A stretch of 8,812 bases of DNA. It comes from Acidobacteriota bacterium. GTDB lineage: Bacteria; Acidobacteriota; Terriglobia; Terriglobales; Acidobacteriaceae. The stretch's first letter is position 1, and the number at the start of each line of letters is the position of its first letter. The position numbers were made by a program, and so were the translations under genes. The notes below the pieces were generated by a model. It did no database searches. It was not told the DNA's origin and worked only from the letters and a program-made list of their open reading frames with translations. Below are positions 2,786 through 7,833 of this stretch, one piece after another. The stretch spans positions 1 through 8,812 of the forward strand of contig JAJXZK010000213.1 of the NCBI GenBank assembly GCA_021780095.1. The letters are read 5' to 3'.

Positions 2786-3538
2786 TCAGAATTCATAATT
2801 CTTCAGGAAGGCCCCGAGGCCGTCAGCGAGTGGATCAAGTGAGGCCAGAACCAAGTTCGCCCATTTCAGCCAGCGCTCCACCTCGGGTTTGTTGCTTTTC
2901 TCAGCGGGTTCCATCTCTGATACCTTTTCGATGAGCGTACGGAGGTGAAAAGCCGCTTCCCAGTTTTGCTGATCCTGTTGTAACCGAGCCCAGCGAGATT
3001 CAGCTAGCCGACGCAACCGGGTCTCCTCTTCAATTTGGGCCCATCGGCGCTCTCGTTCCAACCGCTCTTCGCGGATGATCAAGCTTATGTCGACCAACTT
3101 AGGAATCATGTCGTTTAGCTGTTCTTCCAGGGACCGTTTTTGGCTATCAGACCAGCTTTTTCGATGCCCTGGCGCTCCATGCTCCTGAATCTGAAATGTC
3201 AGCTTCCCCGTTGGGTCAAATCTATAATCCGATTCCCACGAATGCTTCTTCTCCGACGGGAGTACGTGTATTTTTGCCGTCCTCTCCCCCAGGGAAAATT
3301 CCAGTCGTTCACCGCTGATTATCAAGGCGGACCCGCGTTTCTCGCTTGCGGTCTCCACCGAAAAGCCTCGTTCTTCGAGCGCATAGATCATGGCACTCAT
3401 CAGAAGGAATGCTCTATCGCGGATGCCTTCGCTGACGCGAATATTAAGTGGAACCGCGAATGATACACCATGGTGATGGGTCGAGAGTGCCGTTTTTGTG
3501 GCTTGCACTAATGGGTGCAGTATCCGGTCCGAATTCAC
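2786..3538 (-). CDS. Uncharacterised protein, probably lacking its usual N-terminal region
   Basis: The 250-residue product starts at a GTG (3536-3538) with no clear Shine-Dalgarno. Its features match a family I know only as 'hypothetical protein': an opening HPLVQATKTAL block, a central PTGKLTFQIQ and RKSWSD..R..LEEQLNDMI block (about 110-145), a long charged helix rich in Arg/Glu (about 150-190, likely coiled coil), and a C-terminal WLKWANLVLASLDPL motif. Longer family members, as I recall them, carry an N-terminal helix-turn-helix-like segment before this part. Here the frame continues upstream of the GTG for 24 codons (reading ...EADPAHRIV, which also looks family-like) but has no ATG, GTG or TTG before a TGA at about 3611-3613. 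This suggests a truncated gene or decaying remnant, though translation from the GTG is possible. It is cytoplasmic by composition (no signal peptide or membrane segment). It lies apart from the envelope operon, with 139 nt between them. Function unknown. Confidence 0.7.
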   Translation of the reverse strand: MNSDRILHPLVQATKTALSTHHHGVSFAVPLNIRVSEGIRDRAFLLMSAMIYALEERGFSVETASEKRGSALIISGERLEFSLGERTAKIHVLPSEKKHSWESDYRFDPTGKLTFQIQEHGAPGHRKSWSDSQKRSLEEQLNDMIPKLVDISLIIREERLERERRWAQIEEETRLRRLAESRWARLQQDQQNWEAAFHLRTLIEKVSEMEPAEKSNKPEVERWLKWANLVLASLDPLADGLGAFLKNYEF

Positions 3539-3677: not shown

Positions 3678-4214
3678 CTAGTTCATGCTAGCGATGTTAG
3701 CGGAGCGGCTGCCTTGCTCCAAAGCAAGAATTTGTCGCCTGCAGAGAAACAAGGGTATGCTCCCGACCAGACCAAAGGTGCAATCGATCAGTCGCCAGCC
3801 GAGCGGAATTCCGCGGATGGCACCAGCAATCAAAGCGAGCGGAATGACTGCGGCGCATGCGAGCAGACCAAACGTGACCACCCATTTGTTGCGAACTGGG
3901 TCGACGTAAGGGCCGATAAAAGCCATCGCGATCACAAGATGGGCGAAGGCAAGCCAGTCTGTCCCGTACGCGAGAAACGGATACCGCGTATCGGTCTGGG
4001 TGATTCCATCGTAGACTCGGTCGATCCACACCAGCAGACCAGTTGAGTTCACGAATCCGCGAAGCGCACTGGCATGAAGACCCGCATCCAGCAGCCGAAT
4101 TTCGCTGGCGATCGGGAATGCAGTAATCCCGCTCAGGATCAGACCCACCATGAAGATCGCGAGCCAAAAGCGGGCACGGCGAAGATGATTCATTCGCGTC
4201 ACAGGTATAAACAT
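3678..4214 (-). CDS. Small four-helix integral membrane protein, unknown function
   Basis: Last gene of the minus-strand cluster. The product (178 residues from ATG 4212-4214) has four hydrophobic segments: FWLAIFMVGLILSG near the N-terminus, DWLAFAHLVIAMAFIG, a long VVTFGLLACAAVIPLALIAGAI, and LIDCTFGLVGSIPLFL near the C-terminus. Characteristic stretches are RYPFLAYGTDWLAFAH, GPYVDPVRNKWV and GIPLGWRLIDCTFG; I recognise these from an uncharacterised bacterial inner-membrane family but know no assigned activity. Start choice: ATG 4214 lies 7 nt after the uppS stop. ATG 4193 (MNHLRRARFW, positive N-terminus before the first helix) is equally plausible. A GTG at 4253 would overlap uppS by 32 nt and is less likely. 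None has a strong Shine-Dalgarno. Tight spacing suggests cotranscription and perhaps coupled translation with uppS. Confidence 0.85.
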   Translation of the reverse strand: MFIPVTRMNHLRRARFWLAIFMVGLILSGITAFPIASEIRLLDAGLHASALRGFVNSTGLLVWIDRVYDGITQTDTRYPFLAYGTDWLAFAHLVIAMAFIGPYVDPVRNKWVVTFGLLACAAVIPLALIAGAIRGIPLGWRLIDCTFGLVGSIPLFLCRRQILALEQGSRSANIASMN

Positions 4215-4221
4215 ATATCCG

Positions 4222-4953
4222 CTACCCACTACTTGCCGCGCCCAGACGGTCACTCGTCAAACTCGGCAGTCCACCATACCGCCGCTGCCGATGGCTGAAA
4301 TCCCTCATCGCGTCGTCAAGATCTGATTCATCAAAGTCCGGCCACATGCGATCTGTAAATAGCAGCTCCGCATAGGCAGACTCCCACAGCAGGAAATCAG
4401 AGAGCCGTTTCTCTCCTCCCGTGCGAATCAGAAGATCCACATCCTGTGTCTGCAGCCTCGACAAAACAGTGTCGCGAGCCGGAATTCCATGACGCGGAAA
4501 CGCAACCGTCGCATCTAGAGCGGCTTGCGCGATTGCGTGTCGCGACGAGTAGTCGATGGCGACGCAGACTAGAAGTCTTTTGCCTGCAGCGGTCACCGAT
4601 TCGGCGGTTTCCATCGCCTTCAGCACCACCGGAGTCAGGCGATCGCGGCGCCCAACAAATTGAAGTCGCATCCCGCGTTGGCGCATCCGTTCCGTTTCAA
4701 GGCGGAGGAAGGCCCGCAGCAGCCAGAAAATGCTCTGCACTTCTGCGGGCGGACGCCGCCAGTTATCCGATGAGAATGCGTACAGCGTGAGCTGATCGAT
4801 GGAGATATCGAGCGCATGCTCTAGCACTCTCCGCAACGCGCCGATACCCGCGCGGTGACCCGCTGAACGAGGTAGCCCCCGCTGTTCAGCCCAGCGGCCG
4901 TTCCCGTCCATGATAATGGCGACGTGGATGCCGTGCTCAGTTTCACCTGACAT
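4222..4953 (-). CDS. uppS: Undecaprenyl diphosphate synthase (cis-prenyltransferase)
   Basis: The 243-residue protein has the full UPP synthase signature. It condenses isopentenyl diphosphate onto farnesyl diphosphate in cis to give the C55 lipid carrier for peptidoglycan and other surface polymers, at the cytoplasmic membrane face. Visible motifs: HVAIIMDGNGRWA with the catalytic Asp16; RSAGHRAG (about 29-36); LTLYAFSSDNWRRP (about 56-69); and the C-terminal block LLIRTGGEKRLSDFLLWE...YAELLFTDRMWPDF, which carries the IPP- and Mg-binding Arg and Glu residues. Length is normal for the family. The usual SNFLLW is SDFLLW here, an Asn-to-Asp change next to the binding loop. The ATG at 4951-4953 lies inside the end of creD (11-nt overlap), so translational coupling is likely; the Shine-Dalgarno is weak (GGGG). 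The common neighbours of housekeeping uppS (cdsA, dxr, rseP) are absent, so this may be a second, regulated copy. Confidence 0.93.
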   Translation of the reverse strand: MSGETEHGIHVAIIMDGNGRWAEQRGLPRSAGHRAGIGALRRVLEHALDISIDQLTLYAFSSDNWRRPPAEVQSIFWLLRAFLRLETERMRQRGMRLQFVGRRDRLTPVVLKAMETAESVTAAGKRLLVCVAIDYSSRHAIAQAALDATVAFPRHGIPARDTVLSRLQTQDVDLLIRTGGEKRLSDFLLWESAYAELLFTDRMWPDFDESDLDDAMRDFSHRQRRYGGLPSLTSDRLGAASSG

Positions 4954-6337
4954 CGCTTGCCCCAGCGGACGGTACGGCTCTCTCTGGCAATGAAGCGTAC
5001 CAGTCGAGATTCCGAGTGAAGTACATCGCTACGGCCACAGCCGCGAAGCTCGCAATAGCACCTAACAGCAAAGCATTGTCCTCAAGACGCAGCAACAAAT
5101 AGATGAGCAGGTAGAGCAACGTAAAAACCATAAGCGCCCGGAACCCCAATCGCCGGTTCGCAAAGATCCATCCCGCATTTGTTGCAAGCAGCCCCACGGA
5201 GGCGACACTTGCAATCAGAAATCCCAGGTTAAATCCGATGCGTTCGGCGAATGACAACAGCAGTAAATAGAAGATAATCTGCGCCATCCCTACCAGAATG
5301 TATTGCGCCGGATGCACGTGTCGCCCGGTCGTAACCTCAAAGATGAAGTAGGCTAGAAACACCAGCCCCAGAAAGAGCGGAACATATTTCAGAGAGCGGT
5401 TCACAGACTGGTATGGATTGGCAACTTCGACGAATGAGACACCCATTGCGGTCGCGTCCAGACCGGAGATCGAACCCTCAGTTCCTTCGGCGCGCACCCC
5501 GCGCGCGATGAAGGGCACGGACCACATTGCCGTGAAGCCGCTGCTCGTCACAATTCTGCTCACCGGCAAAAAGCCGCCGTCGAATCCCGGACTACGCCAA
5601 CCTCCCTGTTCGGTAATGTGGGTAGTTTTTCCCCAGGCGAGCACGGCAATGCGCTGTGCACCGGAGAAGTGCAGCTTCGAAGAGACGCTGAACTGACCGT
5701 TGGGAACAACGAGGCTCGGGACGTGTGCACCAAGCAGCATCAGGCGAAGTTGCGAGTTCTGATCGCTGCCGAACTGCATATCAGGCGCACTTTCCGCCGG
5801 CGTGAGTGTGAACGGCTTGCCGCCCGCAGTCAACATCGCGTCGGCAAGCGCGCCGCGCGCATCGCTGACACCAACAAGGATCTCTGCCCGGCTCCAATCC
5901 AGAGTCCCTTTCGTCAATGTCGTCGGCGCTCCCGTCAAATCGAAGGTCGAATCGAGCTTCAGGTCCGCCTGAAAGACTGGCACCTTGAATAACGAACGCC
6001 GCCGTTCTTCGGTTGTGATCTTCACCATTGCGAAAGCTTGGGTCGGAAATATGAGATAGATCCCCTGTTTTGCAACCTGCGTCGGCAGATCTCCTGGGAT
6101 GCTGTATGGAATCGCTAGGATGGGTCCGAGGAAGGTCTGCTCACCACCGACAACCTGGCTGATCTGCTTCACAACATCCGCTTCGCGGCTCGTCCTGTCG
6201 TTGACTAAGGAATCCACTAGAAATGCTGGAATCATCATTAGCAGCGCCAGAAAGCAGACCACGATGAGCTTCACGCCCATCGACCATGTTCTGAATTTCG
6301 TATGCAGCAACGACGGTACGCCGGACCACTCGCTCAT
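4943..6337 (-). CDS. creD: CreD-like inner-membrane envelope protein
   Basis: The 464-residue product matches the CreD family (Pfam CreD; E. coli CreD is about 450 residues). It has one N-terminal helix (about 22-44, KLIVVCFLALLMMIPAFLV), then the family motif DRTSREADVVKQIS...GGEQTFLGPILAIPY, a large extracytoplasmic beta-rich part (about 75-320), and a C-terminal cluster of helices with HPAQYILVGMAQIIFYLLLL, SFAERIGF and TRNLDWY. In enterobacteria CreD is an output gene of the CreBC system, linked to envelope integrity and to colicin and beta-lactam tolerance; its biochemical role is unknown. The start at ATG 6335-6337 is chosen for a strong GAGGGAG (6344-6350) six bases upstream. The in-frame ATG at 6370 would place the operator palindrome inside the gene and lacks a ribosome site. 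It overlaps uppS by 11 nt. It is preceded by a palindromic operator at 6357-6373, suggesting local control by the adjacent winged-helix regulator rather than by a CreBC pair. Confidence 0.92.
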   Translation of the reverse strand: MSEWSGVPSLLHTKFRTWSMGVKLIVVCFLALLMMIPAFLVDSLVNDRTSREADVVKQISQVVGGEQTFLGPILAIPYSIPGDLPTQVAKQGIYLIFPTQAFAMVKITTEERRRSLFKVPVFQADLKLDSTFDLTGAPTTLTKGTLDWSRAEILVGVSDARGALADAMLTAGGKPFTLTPAESAPDMQFGSDQNSQLRLMLLGAHVPSLVVPNGQFSVSSKLHFSGAQRIAVLAWGKTTHITEQGGWRSPGFDGGFLPVSRIVTSSGFTAMWSVPFIARGVRAEGTEGSISGLDATAMGVSFVEVANPYQSVNRSLKYVPLFLGLVFLAYFIFEVTTGRHVHPAQYILVGMAQIIFYLLLLSFAERIGFNLGFLIASVASVGLLATNAGWIFANRRLGFRALMVFTLLYLLIYLLLRLEDNALLLGAIASFAAVAVAMYFTRNLDWYASLPERAVPSAGASDVR

Positions 6338-6356: not shown

Positions 6357-6373
6357 ACTTTGCACTGCAAAGT
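6357..6373. promoter_or_regulatory. Palindromic operator site 1, upstream of creD
   Basis: On the plus strand this reads ACTTTGCA-C-TGCAAAGT, a perfect inverted repeat with 8-bp arms and a single central base. It lies in the 52-nt gap between the regulator stop (6390) and the creD start (6337), just before the creD Shine-Dalgarno. It differs from site 2 (7392-7408) only at one symmetric arm position and the centre. A 9-mer ATAGGCAAA (6376-6384) lies beside it, as at site 2. It is inferred to be bound by the winged-helix protein encoded next to it. I see no clear -35/-10 pair here, so its effect on creD could be on an internal promoter or on read-through. Confidence 0.75.
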
Positions 6374-6389
6374 AAATAGGCAAAAAAAT

Positions 6390-6779
6390 TCAGACTCTCG
6401 CCGGTTTCAATCCACGCACCGTCGCTGCGGCCGTCGCCTCTTTTGTGCCCTTCGCCGCGTCGCGAACCACCTGCTCCAGCGTTTCCAAATATTCCAAATA
6501 TCGGTTGCGCCCGGCTGGCGTAATGCGGCAAACGGTCTGCGGGCGATTACGATCGTGACCTTTGGCAATCTCTACCATTCCATCTTTTTCAAGCACGGTC
6601 AGGTGCCGGCTCAGGTTTCCATCAGTCAGTGCACAAAGCTGCTTTAGCTCGTTAAATGTCAGGCCTTTCGGATGTGTAATCAAGGACGTAAGCACGCTTA
6701 GGCGCGCTCGCTCGTGGATTACTCGATCGAGACCTTCGTAGGCGAAGCGGCCCTCTCCGGATGGCGCATTAGCTTTCAT
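6390..6779 (-). CDS. Winged-helix transcriptional regulator (HTH_27-like, MarR/ArsR fold)
   Basis: The 129-residue protein fits the winged-helix group annotated as HTH_27: IHERARLSVLTSL (helix 1), LTFNELKQLCALTDGNLSRH (helix 2 and recognition helix, about 43-62), LTVLEKDGMVEIAKG and RPQTVCRITPAGRNRYLEYL (wing and C-terminal helix). There is no ligand domain and no Cys/His metal cluster typical of many ArsR sensors, so the signal is not evident. It probably acts as a dimer, given the paired palindromes flanking its operon. The start at ATG 6777-6779 is chosen for a strong AAGGAG (6787-6792) seven bases upstream; the same frame is open further upstream but there it only shadows the preceding gene. 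It overlaps the upstream membrane-protein gene by 11 nt, suggesting that the membrane protein and regulator are made together. Predicted role: repressor of its own operon and of creD-uppS. Confidence 0.88.
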   Translation of the reverse strand: MKANAPSGEGRFAYEGLDRVIHERARLSVLTSLITHPKGLTFNELKQLCALTDGNLSRHLTVLEKDGMVEIAKGHDRNRPQTVCRITPAGRNRYLEYLETLEQVVRDAAKGTKEATAAATVRGLKPARV

Positions 6780-7389
6780 GGCCGCGCTCCTTCGCATAAA
6801 AAAACAATATGCCCGCGACCAGCATTTGCCCTGCTCCAAAGGGAATCGCCATCGCCCAGGGCGAAAGGGCACGATTTCCCCCAAGTCCCACACACAGCAT
6901 TCCGGTAAAGAGATACCACGCTCCAGCAGTAGTGATGGGCCGAGGCAAAAAACGACAAGAAGCGAAAATCCCCAAACTGAAAGTGACCTGCCAAAGTCCA
7001 GGTAGCATCCATTCGAGTTCTGGGGCTGTGCGCAGCAGCACGACAGTGAGTAGCAGCCCCGCGCCAAGTGCAGGAAGAAACTGCTCGACGGCCATATGGA
7101 TCATTTCGTCCGACAGACCGGAATGAATGCGGCGGCTGCGCGTATACATCTGGGTCCCGGCAAGCACAACGGAAACGGAAGCAGTCAAGCACCAAAGCCC
7201 CACGTATTGCGCGACATGCGTCGCGGGGTGGGGAATCCAAAGATACTGCGCTATGGAGGCTAAGACTGCGAATAAGCCGGTAGCAGCCAGGGTAGCCGGG
7301 CCATATCCGCGAAACTCCGTCGTGCGGGCCACCTGCCTTCGGATACTGCTGATGTCACCGAGTGCCTTGTAAAGTTCATTCATGGCCAT
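6769..7389 (-). CDS. Multi-pass membrane protein paired with the regulator, unknown function
   Basis: First gene of the cluster, 206 residues from ATG 7387-7389. A second in-frame ATG (7381-7383, MNELYKALG) gives 204 residues and is the better start, since AAAGTGA lies about six bases before it. After a soluble N-terminal helix (ELYKALGDISSIRRQVARTT, then FRGYGP) come about six hydrophobic segments: ATGLFAVLASIAQYLW, YVGLWCLTASVSVVLAG, FLPALGAGLLLTVVLL, MLPGLWQVTFSLGIFASC, AWYLFTGMLCVGL and IPFGAGQMLVAGILFFY. I recall this as an uncharacterised family encoded next to HTH_27 regulators, which matches the order here. It may be a sensor or partner that tunes the regulator at the membrane; that is inference. 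The operator at 7392-7408 touches its start region, so its expression should depend directly on the regulator. Confidence 0.87.
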   Translation of the reverse strand: MAMNELYKALGDISSIRRQVARTTEFRGYGPATLAATGLFAVLASIAQYLWIPHPATHVAQYVGLWCLTASVSVVLAGTQMYTRSRRIHSGLSDEMIHMAVEQFLPALGAGLLLTVVLLRTAPELEWMLPGLWQVTFSLGIFASCRFLPRPITTAGAWYLFTGMLCVGLGGNRALSPWAMAIPFGAGQMLVAGILFFYAKERGHES

Positions 7390-7391
7390 TC

Positions 7392-7408
7392 ACTTTACAT
7401 TGTAAAGT
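7392..7408. promoter_or_regulatory. Palindromic operator site 2, at the start of the cluster
   Basis: This reads ACTTTACA-T-TGTAAAGT, a perfect inverted repeat with 8-bp arms and one central base, ending 2 nt before the first possible start codon of the minus-strand cluster. It overlaps the putative -10 and the ribosome-binding region, as expected for repression. The same palindrome in slightly changed form is site 1 (6357-6373). The ATAGGCAAA 9-mer recurs beside it at 7415-7423. It resembles the TACA-N-TGTA core of some winged-helix repressor operators (BlaI/CopY sites have a two-base centre), but that is only an analogy. Confidence 0.8.
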
Positions 7409-7432
7409 AATTTCATAGGCAAAGCTTGTCAA
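7404..7432 (-). promoter_or_regulatory. Putative sigma-70-like promoter of the envelope cluster
   Basis: On the minus strand a perfect TTGACA (7427-7432) is followed after 17 nt by TACTTT (7404-7409), a weak -10 match. The -10 lies inside one arm of operator site 2, so binding there would block transcription. The expected start point is about 7397, leaving a very short leader before ATG 7389 or 7383. The weak -10 keeps confidence moderate. Confidence 0.45.
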
Positions 7433-7506: not shown

Positions 7507-7757
7507 ATCACATTTCAGATTGCTTGCGAGGCGGTTTAAATTGGCGTGGCCCCCCGGCATTCCTATTTTCGAAGGGTGCTCGGCTTTCTGGGGGACACTC
7601 GGCATTTCCCGATCAGAGAATGGCTGCGTTTAGAAGCAGATTTCAGCACGCGGAGAATAATCTCCTATGTCCTTCGAGAGCCAAAGGTATGCAATTCGCG
7701 GGGAAATACGAAGAGCATTGACTGTGACTTGCAGATGTAAAAAGATTTAAGACTGTA
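7507..7757. repeat. Long direct repeat, copy B, abutting the tRNA-Ala 3' end
   Basis: Direct-repeat partner of 2396-2640. The 66-nt exact block is at 7593-7658, and the 18-nt exact block (7749-7766) crosses into the tRNA gene. Relative to copy A it has a net gain of 18 nt between 7561 and 7592, creating an internal near-duplicate (GGTGCTCGGCTTTC / GGACACTCGGCATTTC). The GGAGA-ATAA-TCTCC hairpin is at 7652-7665. A frame from ATG 7443 to 7721 (92 codons) passes through it with a nearby AAGGA, but its product resembles nothing I know. The stretch 7409-7506 shows only the ATAGGCAAA motif and the promoter -35. Because the tRNA is read leftwards, this repeat is its 3' trailer. Confidence 0.85.
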
Positions 7758-7833
7758 TGGTGGACCTGGTCGGGATCGAACCGACGACCTCTTCCATGCC
7801 ATGGAAGCGCGCTCCCAGCTGCGCCACAGGCCC
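7758..7833 (-). tRNA. tRNA-Ala (anticodon GGC)
   Basis: The minus strand folds into a complete 76-nt cloverleaf: acceptor GGGCCTG paired with CAGGTCC (one G-U), D stem GCGC/GCGC, anticodon stem CTTCC/GGAAG with loop ATGGCAT (anticodon GGC, alanine GCC/GCU codons), five-base variable loop, T stem GTCGG/CCGAC with TTCGATC loop, then A and an encoded CCA. A TAAACT at 7851-7856 (minus) could be the -10, but no good -35 is visible. Its 3' end and trailer are repeated, decayed, at 2396-2648. Confidence 0.97.

Follow-up and report, generated by a model that had tools for sequence, protein, structure and literature searches.

A conserved palindrome, the probable operator of an HTH_34 winged-helix regulator, before its own operon, creD and a few carrier-lipid genes

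The minus-strand cluster and its two palindromes

The window, an 8,812-nucleotide stretch of DNA from an Acidobacteriota bacterium (contig JAJXZK010000213.1), carries a cluster of genes on its minus strand. At 6769..7383 lies the gene for a 204-residue membrane protein (here MEM) that belongs to no Pfam or NCBIfam family and whose AlphaFold2 model is all helical, with a mean pLDDT of 86.9; the start at 7383 was picked by alignment with relatives, and a longer, 206-residue reading begins at 7389. MEM overlaps by 11 nt the gene for a 129-residue winged-helix protein (REG; 6390..6779, minus strand), and the MEM stop overlaps the aligned REG start in 72 of 81 loci. REG, the proposed operator-binding protein, matches HTH_34 (PF13601) at 78.3 bits over residues 26–105, far over the cut-off of 27, so the HTH_27 label given to it by the first-pass annotation is wrong; HTH_27 is not among the five Pfam families matched at E 0.001. 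The protein is a winged helix with a C-terminal dimer helix, as in the PadR/LmrR-like fold. It is 12–17% identical to the autorepressors LmrR and a Bacteroides PadR-like protein and 26% identical to Rv3488, and at E 0.001 it is not recognised by Pfam's PadR model. A solved relative, PH1061 (1ub9), has records that give no function. A defence-system reading was dropped, as PADLOC gave only weak matches to the winged helices of Csa3 and similar proteins.

Next in the direction of transcription comes creD (4943..6337, minus strand), the proposed target, which encodes an inner membrane protein scoring 374.6 bits against PF06123 (cut-off 23) and 378 bits against NF008712 (cut-off 275). It overlaps by 11 nt an uppS-like gene (4222..4953, minus strand) for an undecaprenyl diphosphate synthase (PF01255). 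The latter is an accessory paralogue: in 11 of 17 genomes, drawn from the 20 used for the site-specificity scan below, a UppS of the window type (56–67% identical to that of the window) accompanies a second UppS (39–45%) as an additional copy. On the 3′ side of uppS, a 191-residue protein (M191; 3678..4253, minus strand) has no Pfam or NCBIfam match; tblastn finds it at 19 of 80 loci, in part as partial matches. A direct repeat (2402–2648 and 7515–7781; 81% over 198 nt, with a further piece of 32 nt), whose copies lie 5.1 kb apart, flanks the entire minus-strand cluster. Because the repeat takes in the 3′ end of tRNA-Ala(GGC) (7758–7833), the cluster is bracketed by attachment-site-like copies. 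No integrase was seen among the genes between them; the segment also holds a 250-residue protein (2786–3538) with no family match.

Two 17-nt perfect palindromes of the form 8+1+8, to which no strand is assigned, lie at the proposed operators: ACTTTACATTGTAAAGT at 7392–7408 (operator 1, site 1), upstream of MEM and 8 nt from its ATG (7383), and ACTTTGCACTGCAAAGT at 6357–6373 (operator 2, site 2), between REG and creD and 19 nt from the creD ATG (6337). They are the sole matches in the window to ACTTTRCANTGYAAAGT at up to three mismatches, against a chance mean of 0.05, and two such matches arose in none of 200 shuffles of the window. Their positions and symmetry were thus correctly described by the first-pass annotation. 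It also placed the regulator gene between the two sites, which is right for REG, although the bracketed unit is MEM plus REG and not the regulator gene alone. Its argument that the mirrored A/G difference between the sites reflects selected symmetry had to be given up, because these positions vary independently across loci: agreement at pair 6/12 is 46% before MEM (50% expected under independence) and 54% after REG (55% expected), so symmetry among the variable pairs does not exceed that of independent positions.

Conservation and specificity of the palindrome

An alignment joining the window's REG to 24 relatives was used to scan a genome collection and returned 254 stretches encoding REG relatives; the best 80 of these were kept as loci (L001–L080). 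They come mostly from Acidobacteria, with further records from Methylobacterium/Methylorubrum, Binataceae, Gammaproteobacteria and Planctomycetes. MEM adjoins REG in all of these best 80 loci. Counting the window and 79 of the loci (L033, in which the MEM start is cut off, was left out), a site with at most three mismatches lies within 100 nt 5′ of the MEM start in 79 of 80, at distances of 0–49 nt, compared with 3 of 1600 shuffled upstream regions. For 11 loci (L004, L005, L012, L023, L028, L040, L041, L053, L068, L070 and L080) the MEM start was set by hand to the aligned start. The sole exception, L077, has a site with four mismatches. Among the 79 sites 38 are exact, and CTTT and AAAG are invariant in every one. 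The arms reach up to 2 bits per column and the flanking columns mostly stay below 0.5 bit; therefore, the conservation of the site is not just general similarity. Among 14 more distant MEM-REG pairs (L103–L116), a two-mismatch site is present in six and no site in eight.

All 75 loci that have creD or uppS downstream carry a second site after REG, compared with one of the six that have neither, most of these six being distant relatives. The first of the two downstream genes is creD in 35 of the 75 and uppS in 40. Five loci have uppS between REG and creD. In three of them (L032, L036 and L041) creD is preceded at 19–24 nt by an additional exact site, and in two (L038 and L043) it lacks a separate one. 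At least two sites follow REG in 22 of 81 loci, most commonly spaced 36 nt apart (12 of 23). The evidence excludes a two-mismatch site located where uppS begins in L047. The first-pass annotation had named lack of conservation at orthologous loci as a refuting outcome; the palindrome is conserved there, on both sides of the MEM-REG pair.

Nor is the motif frequent at random places, the second refuting outcome that could be checked. Across 20 genomes, 44 sites were found at up to one mismatch, against two for a reversed-pattern control; 35 are at MEM-REG loci and nine elsewhere, in six regions, five of the nine preceding creD genes (L081 and L082) and four being without assignment (L083–L086). 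Among 90 genomes of one acidobacterial order, MEM is present in 36 and the exact site in 18, all of them MEM-positive (18 of 36 compared with 0 of 54 MEM-negative genomes; Fisher 2.4e-9, a value that overstates independence, as the genomes are kin); the reversed pattern occurs in none of the 90. Seven of these genomes (G002, G007, G009, G012, G015, G016 and G321) had already been a source of surveyed loci. The exact site is at the MEM locus in 16 of the 18, and in G470 and G483 it lies off that locus (L199 and L200), with no link to the genes considered here.

Over 297 genomes of the phylum, 48 carry a site at up to one mismatch, giving 76 sites by per-genome counts (one G097 site was omitted from follow-up), and the reversed pattern gives 12. 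Within a gammaproteobacterial order (147 genomes), eight sites are matched by eight hits of the reversed pattern. Removal of strong MEM loci and of the L081/L082 creD sites leaves 45 sites, which with the eight gammaproteobacterial ones make 53. Of these motif-only sites, 19 lie within 400 nt before matches to MEM, UppS, CreD or IspH, and three more were linked by hand: in L117 and L149 a REG relative lies downstream, and in L160 a CreD match only just clears the cut-off. The 28 without a link to these genes compare with 20 reversed-pattern hits in those genomes. They include L120, L122, L123, L132, L135, L136 and L145–L148, a number of them inside reading frames; together with L083–L086, L140–L144, L199 and L200, no-link sites are treated as chance occurrences or left without assignment.

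Sites before creD, uppS, ispH and PAP2 genes

In 24 genomes CreD occurs in 14, as 16 distinct genes (18 rows), and 15 of the 16 have an upstream site with at most three mismatches; the 16th (L190) follows uppS in a MEM-REG locus. Fourteen of the 16 sit in loci already counted for post-REG sites, which leaves only L081 and L082 as independent cases. Both are away from the MEM-REG locus: L082 has two sites before a full-length CreD gene, then M191, and L081 has three sites before a short one. A site also precedes creD in L125–L127, with no MEM-REG within the fetched stretch.

Other genes with a proposed carrier-lipid role are found behind the same motif. Sites stand 4 and 22 nt before ispH in L133 and L134; an exact site lies between REG and a partial, weak LytB match in L170, and L180 likewise has a LytB match after REG at its MEM-REG locus, here behind a site with three mismatches. 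Two Gammaproteobacteria have a MEM-REG locus without creD and uppS, and CreD was not found in their genomes. There, sites lie before an off-locus uppS (L137, 184 nt upstream) and before genes for PAP2-superfamily phosphatases (two tandem sites in L139; two-mismatch sites in L138 and L137), and two of these PAP2 proteins give weak, below-cut-off matches to an undecaprenyl-diphosphatase model. The extra sites of a ten-genome scan were followed up except those in G314, G320, G321 and G322. Since the sites precede genes for precursor formation (ispH), chain synthesis (uppS) and a phosphatase step (PAP2) as well as creD, the putative targets point to supply and recycling of the undecaprenyl carrier lipid, a theme missed by the first-pass annotation; the ispH and PAP2 links appear in few genomes.

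Two other genes lie behind the motif. Three of the 53 motif-only sites, in three genomes (L118, L153 and L169), stand where a B12-binding radical SAM gene begins, 52 nt upstream in L153, 24 nt upstream in L169 and overlapping the first possible start in L118; the L153 protein is 65% identical to that of L169 and 36% to that of L118. These proteins are distantly like HpnJ/HpnR and lipid-biosynthesis models, which is a lead only. On the gammaproteobacterial contig that also carries PAP2 and uppS targets (L137, 4217–4368), a gene resembling leucine carboxymethyltransferases (PF04072) has a site some 135 nt upstream.

Promoter context and probable role of REG

On the minus strand, a TTGACA hexamer that reads as a -35 element of the MEM-REG promoter lies at 7427..7432, and its spacing to the site is conserved: an exact TTGACA ends 18, 19 or 20 nt before the MEM site in 30, 7 and 8 loci, respectively (45 of 79). 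With a 17-nt spacer, this -35 and its conserved spacing imply a -10 element TACTTT (7404..7409, minus strand) that overlaps operator 1. A consensus promoter scan, which needs at least four of six positions per hexamer, returned nothing at MEM-REG, TACTTT scoring three. The palindromic site is thus seated over what, by these hexamers, would be the promoter of REG's own operon. Its overlap with the -10 that the TTGACA implies makes autorepression the most likely action of REG. Site 2 has no recognisable -35, with no TTGACA-like hexamer at the equivalent distance. Between the REG stop and site 2, a minus-strand T-run (6382–6388) stops 8 nt short of the site.

We consider it likely that ACTTTRCA-N-TGYAAAGT is the operator of REG, that REG represses its own operon and that the sites define a small carrier-lipid regulon. 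Conservation, specificity and co-occurrence argue for the palindrome as operator of the neighbouring regulator, in agreement with the first-pass annotation. From the sequence of the sites, their conservation, their position relative to a promoter-like TTGACA, their co-occurrence and their neighbouring genes, we infer DNA binding by REG, and repression rather than activation. Bound to the palindrome, probably as a dimer, REG would cover the MEM-REG promoter at its -10 and start region and so repress the MEM-REG operon. It would bind the same sequence before the next operon, here creD-uppS-M191, and before a few distant genes, among which ispH and uppS would serve supply and PAP2-type phosphatases recycling, with CreD in addition.

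The two sites might also act differently, REG repressing itself through site 1 and activating creD and uppS through site 2. The lack at site 2 of the hexamer that precedes site 1 by 18–20 nt would fit such a division, as would a run of at least five T ending 7–10 nt before site 2 in 45 of 76 loci (exactly 8 nt in 39 of these) and the 36-nt spacing commonest in loci with at least two sites after REG. However, in the window site 2 is just 19 nt from the creD ATG, with AGGGAG in between, so that an activator would have hardly any space upstream, and we regard activation as unlikely. Many dimeric regulators could be served by a symmetric site of this length and binding by REG is a prediction, so another, unlinked regulator could bind the palindrome with REG merely one of its targets; the nesting of the exact site within MEM presence among the 90 genomes and the co-occurrence of the MEM-REG pair and the site in several phyla make this improbable. 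Least probable is that the sites act as RNA, in hairpins that terminate or attenuate transcription, or belong to a repeat element, and are not protein operators. The palindrome could fold as RNA, yet only a one-base centre separates its arms, no T-run follows either site in the window, the left arm overlaps the implied -10 and the variable pairs show no compensatory change; as to a repeat element, the motif is not scattered through genomes.

MEM, made together with REG from overlapping genes, is a candidate membrane sensor controlling REG. In Bacillus subtilis, SdpR is a small winged-helix autorepressor encoded with the membrane protein SdpI, which sequesters it. SdpR belongs to a different winged-helix family from REG, and the Sdp pair serves toxin immunity, in contrast to the proposed carrier-lipid targets here; what the systems share is a small winged-helix regulator encoded together with a membrane protein, here in 80 of 80 loci. 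Sequestration of REG by MEM is no more than a hypothesis. Going further, we tentatively suggest, as a possibility with less than even chances, that MEM and REG form a sensor and a repressor devoted to the undecaprenyl (C55) carrier-lipid pool and that CreD is a working part of the cycle. A fall of the C55 pool would lead MEM to remove REG from ACTTTRCANTGYAAAGT, and IspH, the accessory UppS, PAP2 phosphatases and CreD would rise, CreD acting, for example, in transport or protection of the carrier lipid. The signal and the role of MEM in this scheme are inferred.

The known control of creD is of another type. PMC4689548 describes CreBC, a two-component activator that controls creD in gammaproteobacteria via the direct repeat TTCACN6TTCAC, and speaks of little published work on CreD function. 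The CreBC-CreD regulon (E. coli, Aeromonas, Pseudomonas and Stenotrophomonas) resembles the proposed system in having creD as a main target under envelope-stress-linked control, and differs in its two-component regulator and direct repeat, in place of the one-component winged helix and inverted repeat proposed here. The window has no match to TTCACN6TTCAC with fewer than two mismatches and none before creD; its three two-mismatch hits (3308, 3437 and 8061) fall below a chance mean of 7.66. CreB-type control of the window creD was accordingly rejected, the direct repeat being absent upstream. In E. coli, according to PMC3599342, creD is strongly induced within 30 min (5.66 and 4.96 in the paper's table) by colicin M, an agent that sets undecaprenol free from lipid II. 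This induction counts in favour of the carrier-lipid reading. If true, the C55-sensing reading would explain this induction of creD by lipid-II damage, there through an unrelated regulator.

A winged-helix autorepressor with a palindromic operator is ordinary in kind, and the comparative evidence for the operator is strong. The open-licence literature searched holds no mention of HTH_34 or PF13601 that we found, and we found no earlier report of this operator in that literature on the motif, HTH_34, CreD/CreBC, uppS/ispH control and Acidobacteria regulons, the motif itself turning up only in an unrelated paper on virus detection. The site and its targets would thus give a sequence-defined operator and regulon to a winged-helix family that has no operator in the literature searched. 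As a group, the targets offer a helpful hint about CreD: co-regulation of creD with uppS, ispH and PAP2 genes, in bacteria whose control of creD seems to be of an unrelated kind, would make a role of CreD in the carrier-lipid cycle testable. The same reading predicts transcriptional control of the accessory UppS in Acidobacteria and Methylobacterium.

CreD itself varies among the loci. Matches without the middle of the protein occur in L081, L042, L046, L054, L073, L074, L078, L094, L097, L204 and L205, and consist of an N-terminal piece plus residues from about 280–303 onwards, or of the latter alone; the full reading frames among them that were seen have about 236–250 residues. Loci with such a middle-less CreD carry the same upstream site, weaker in some.
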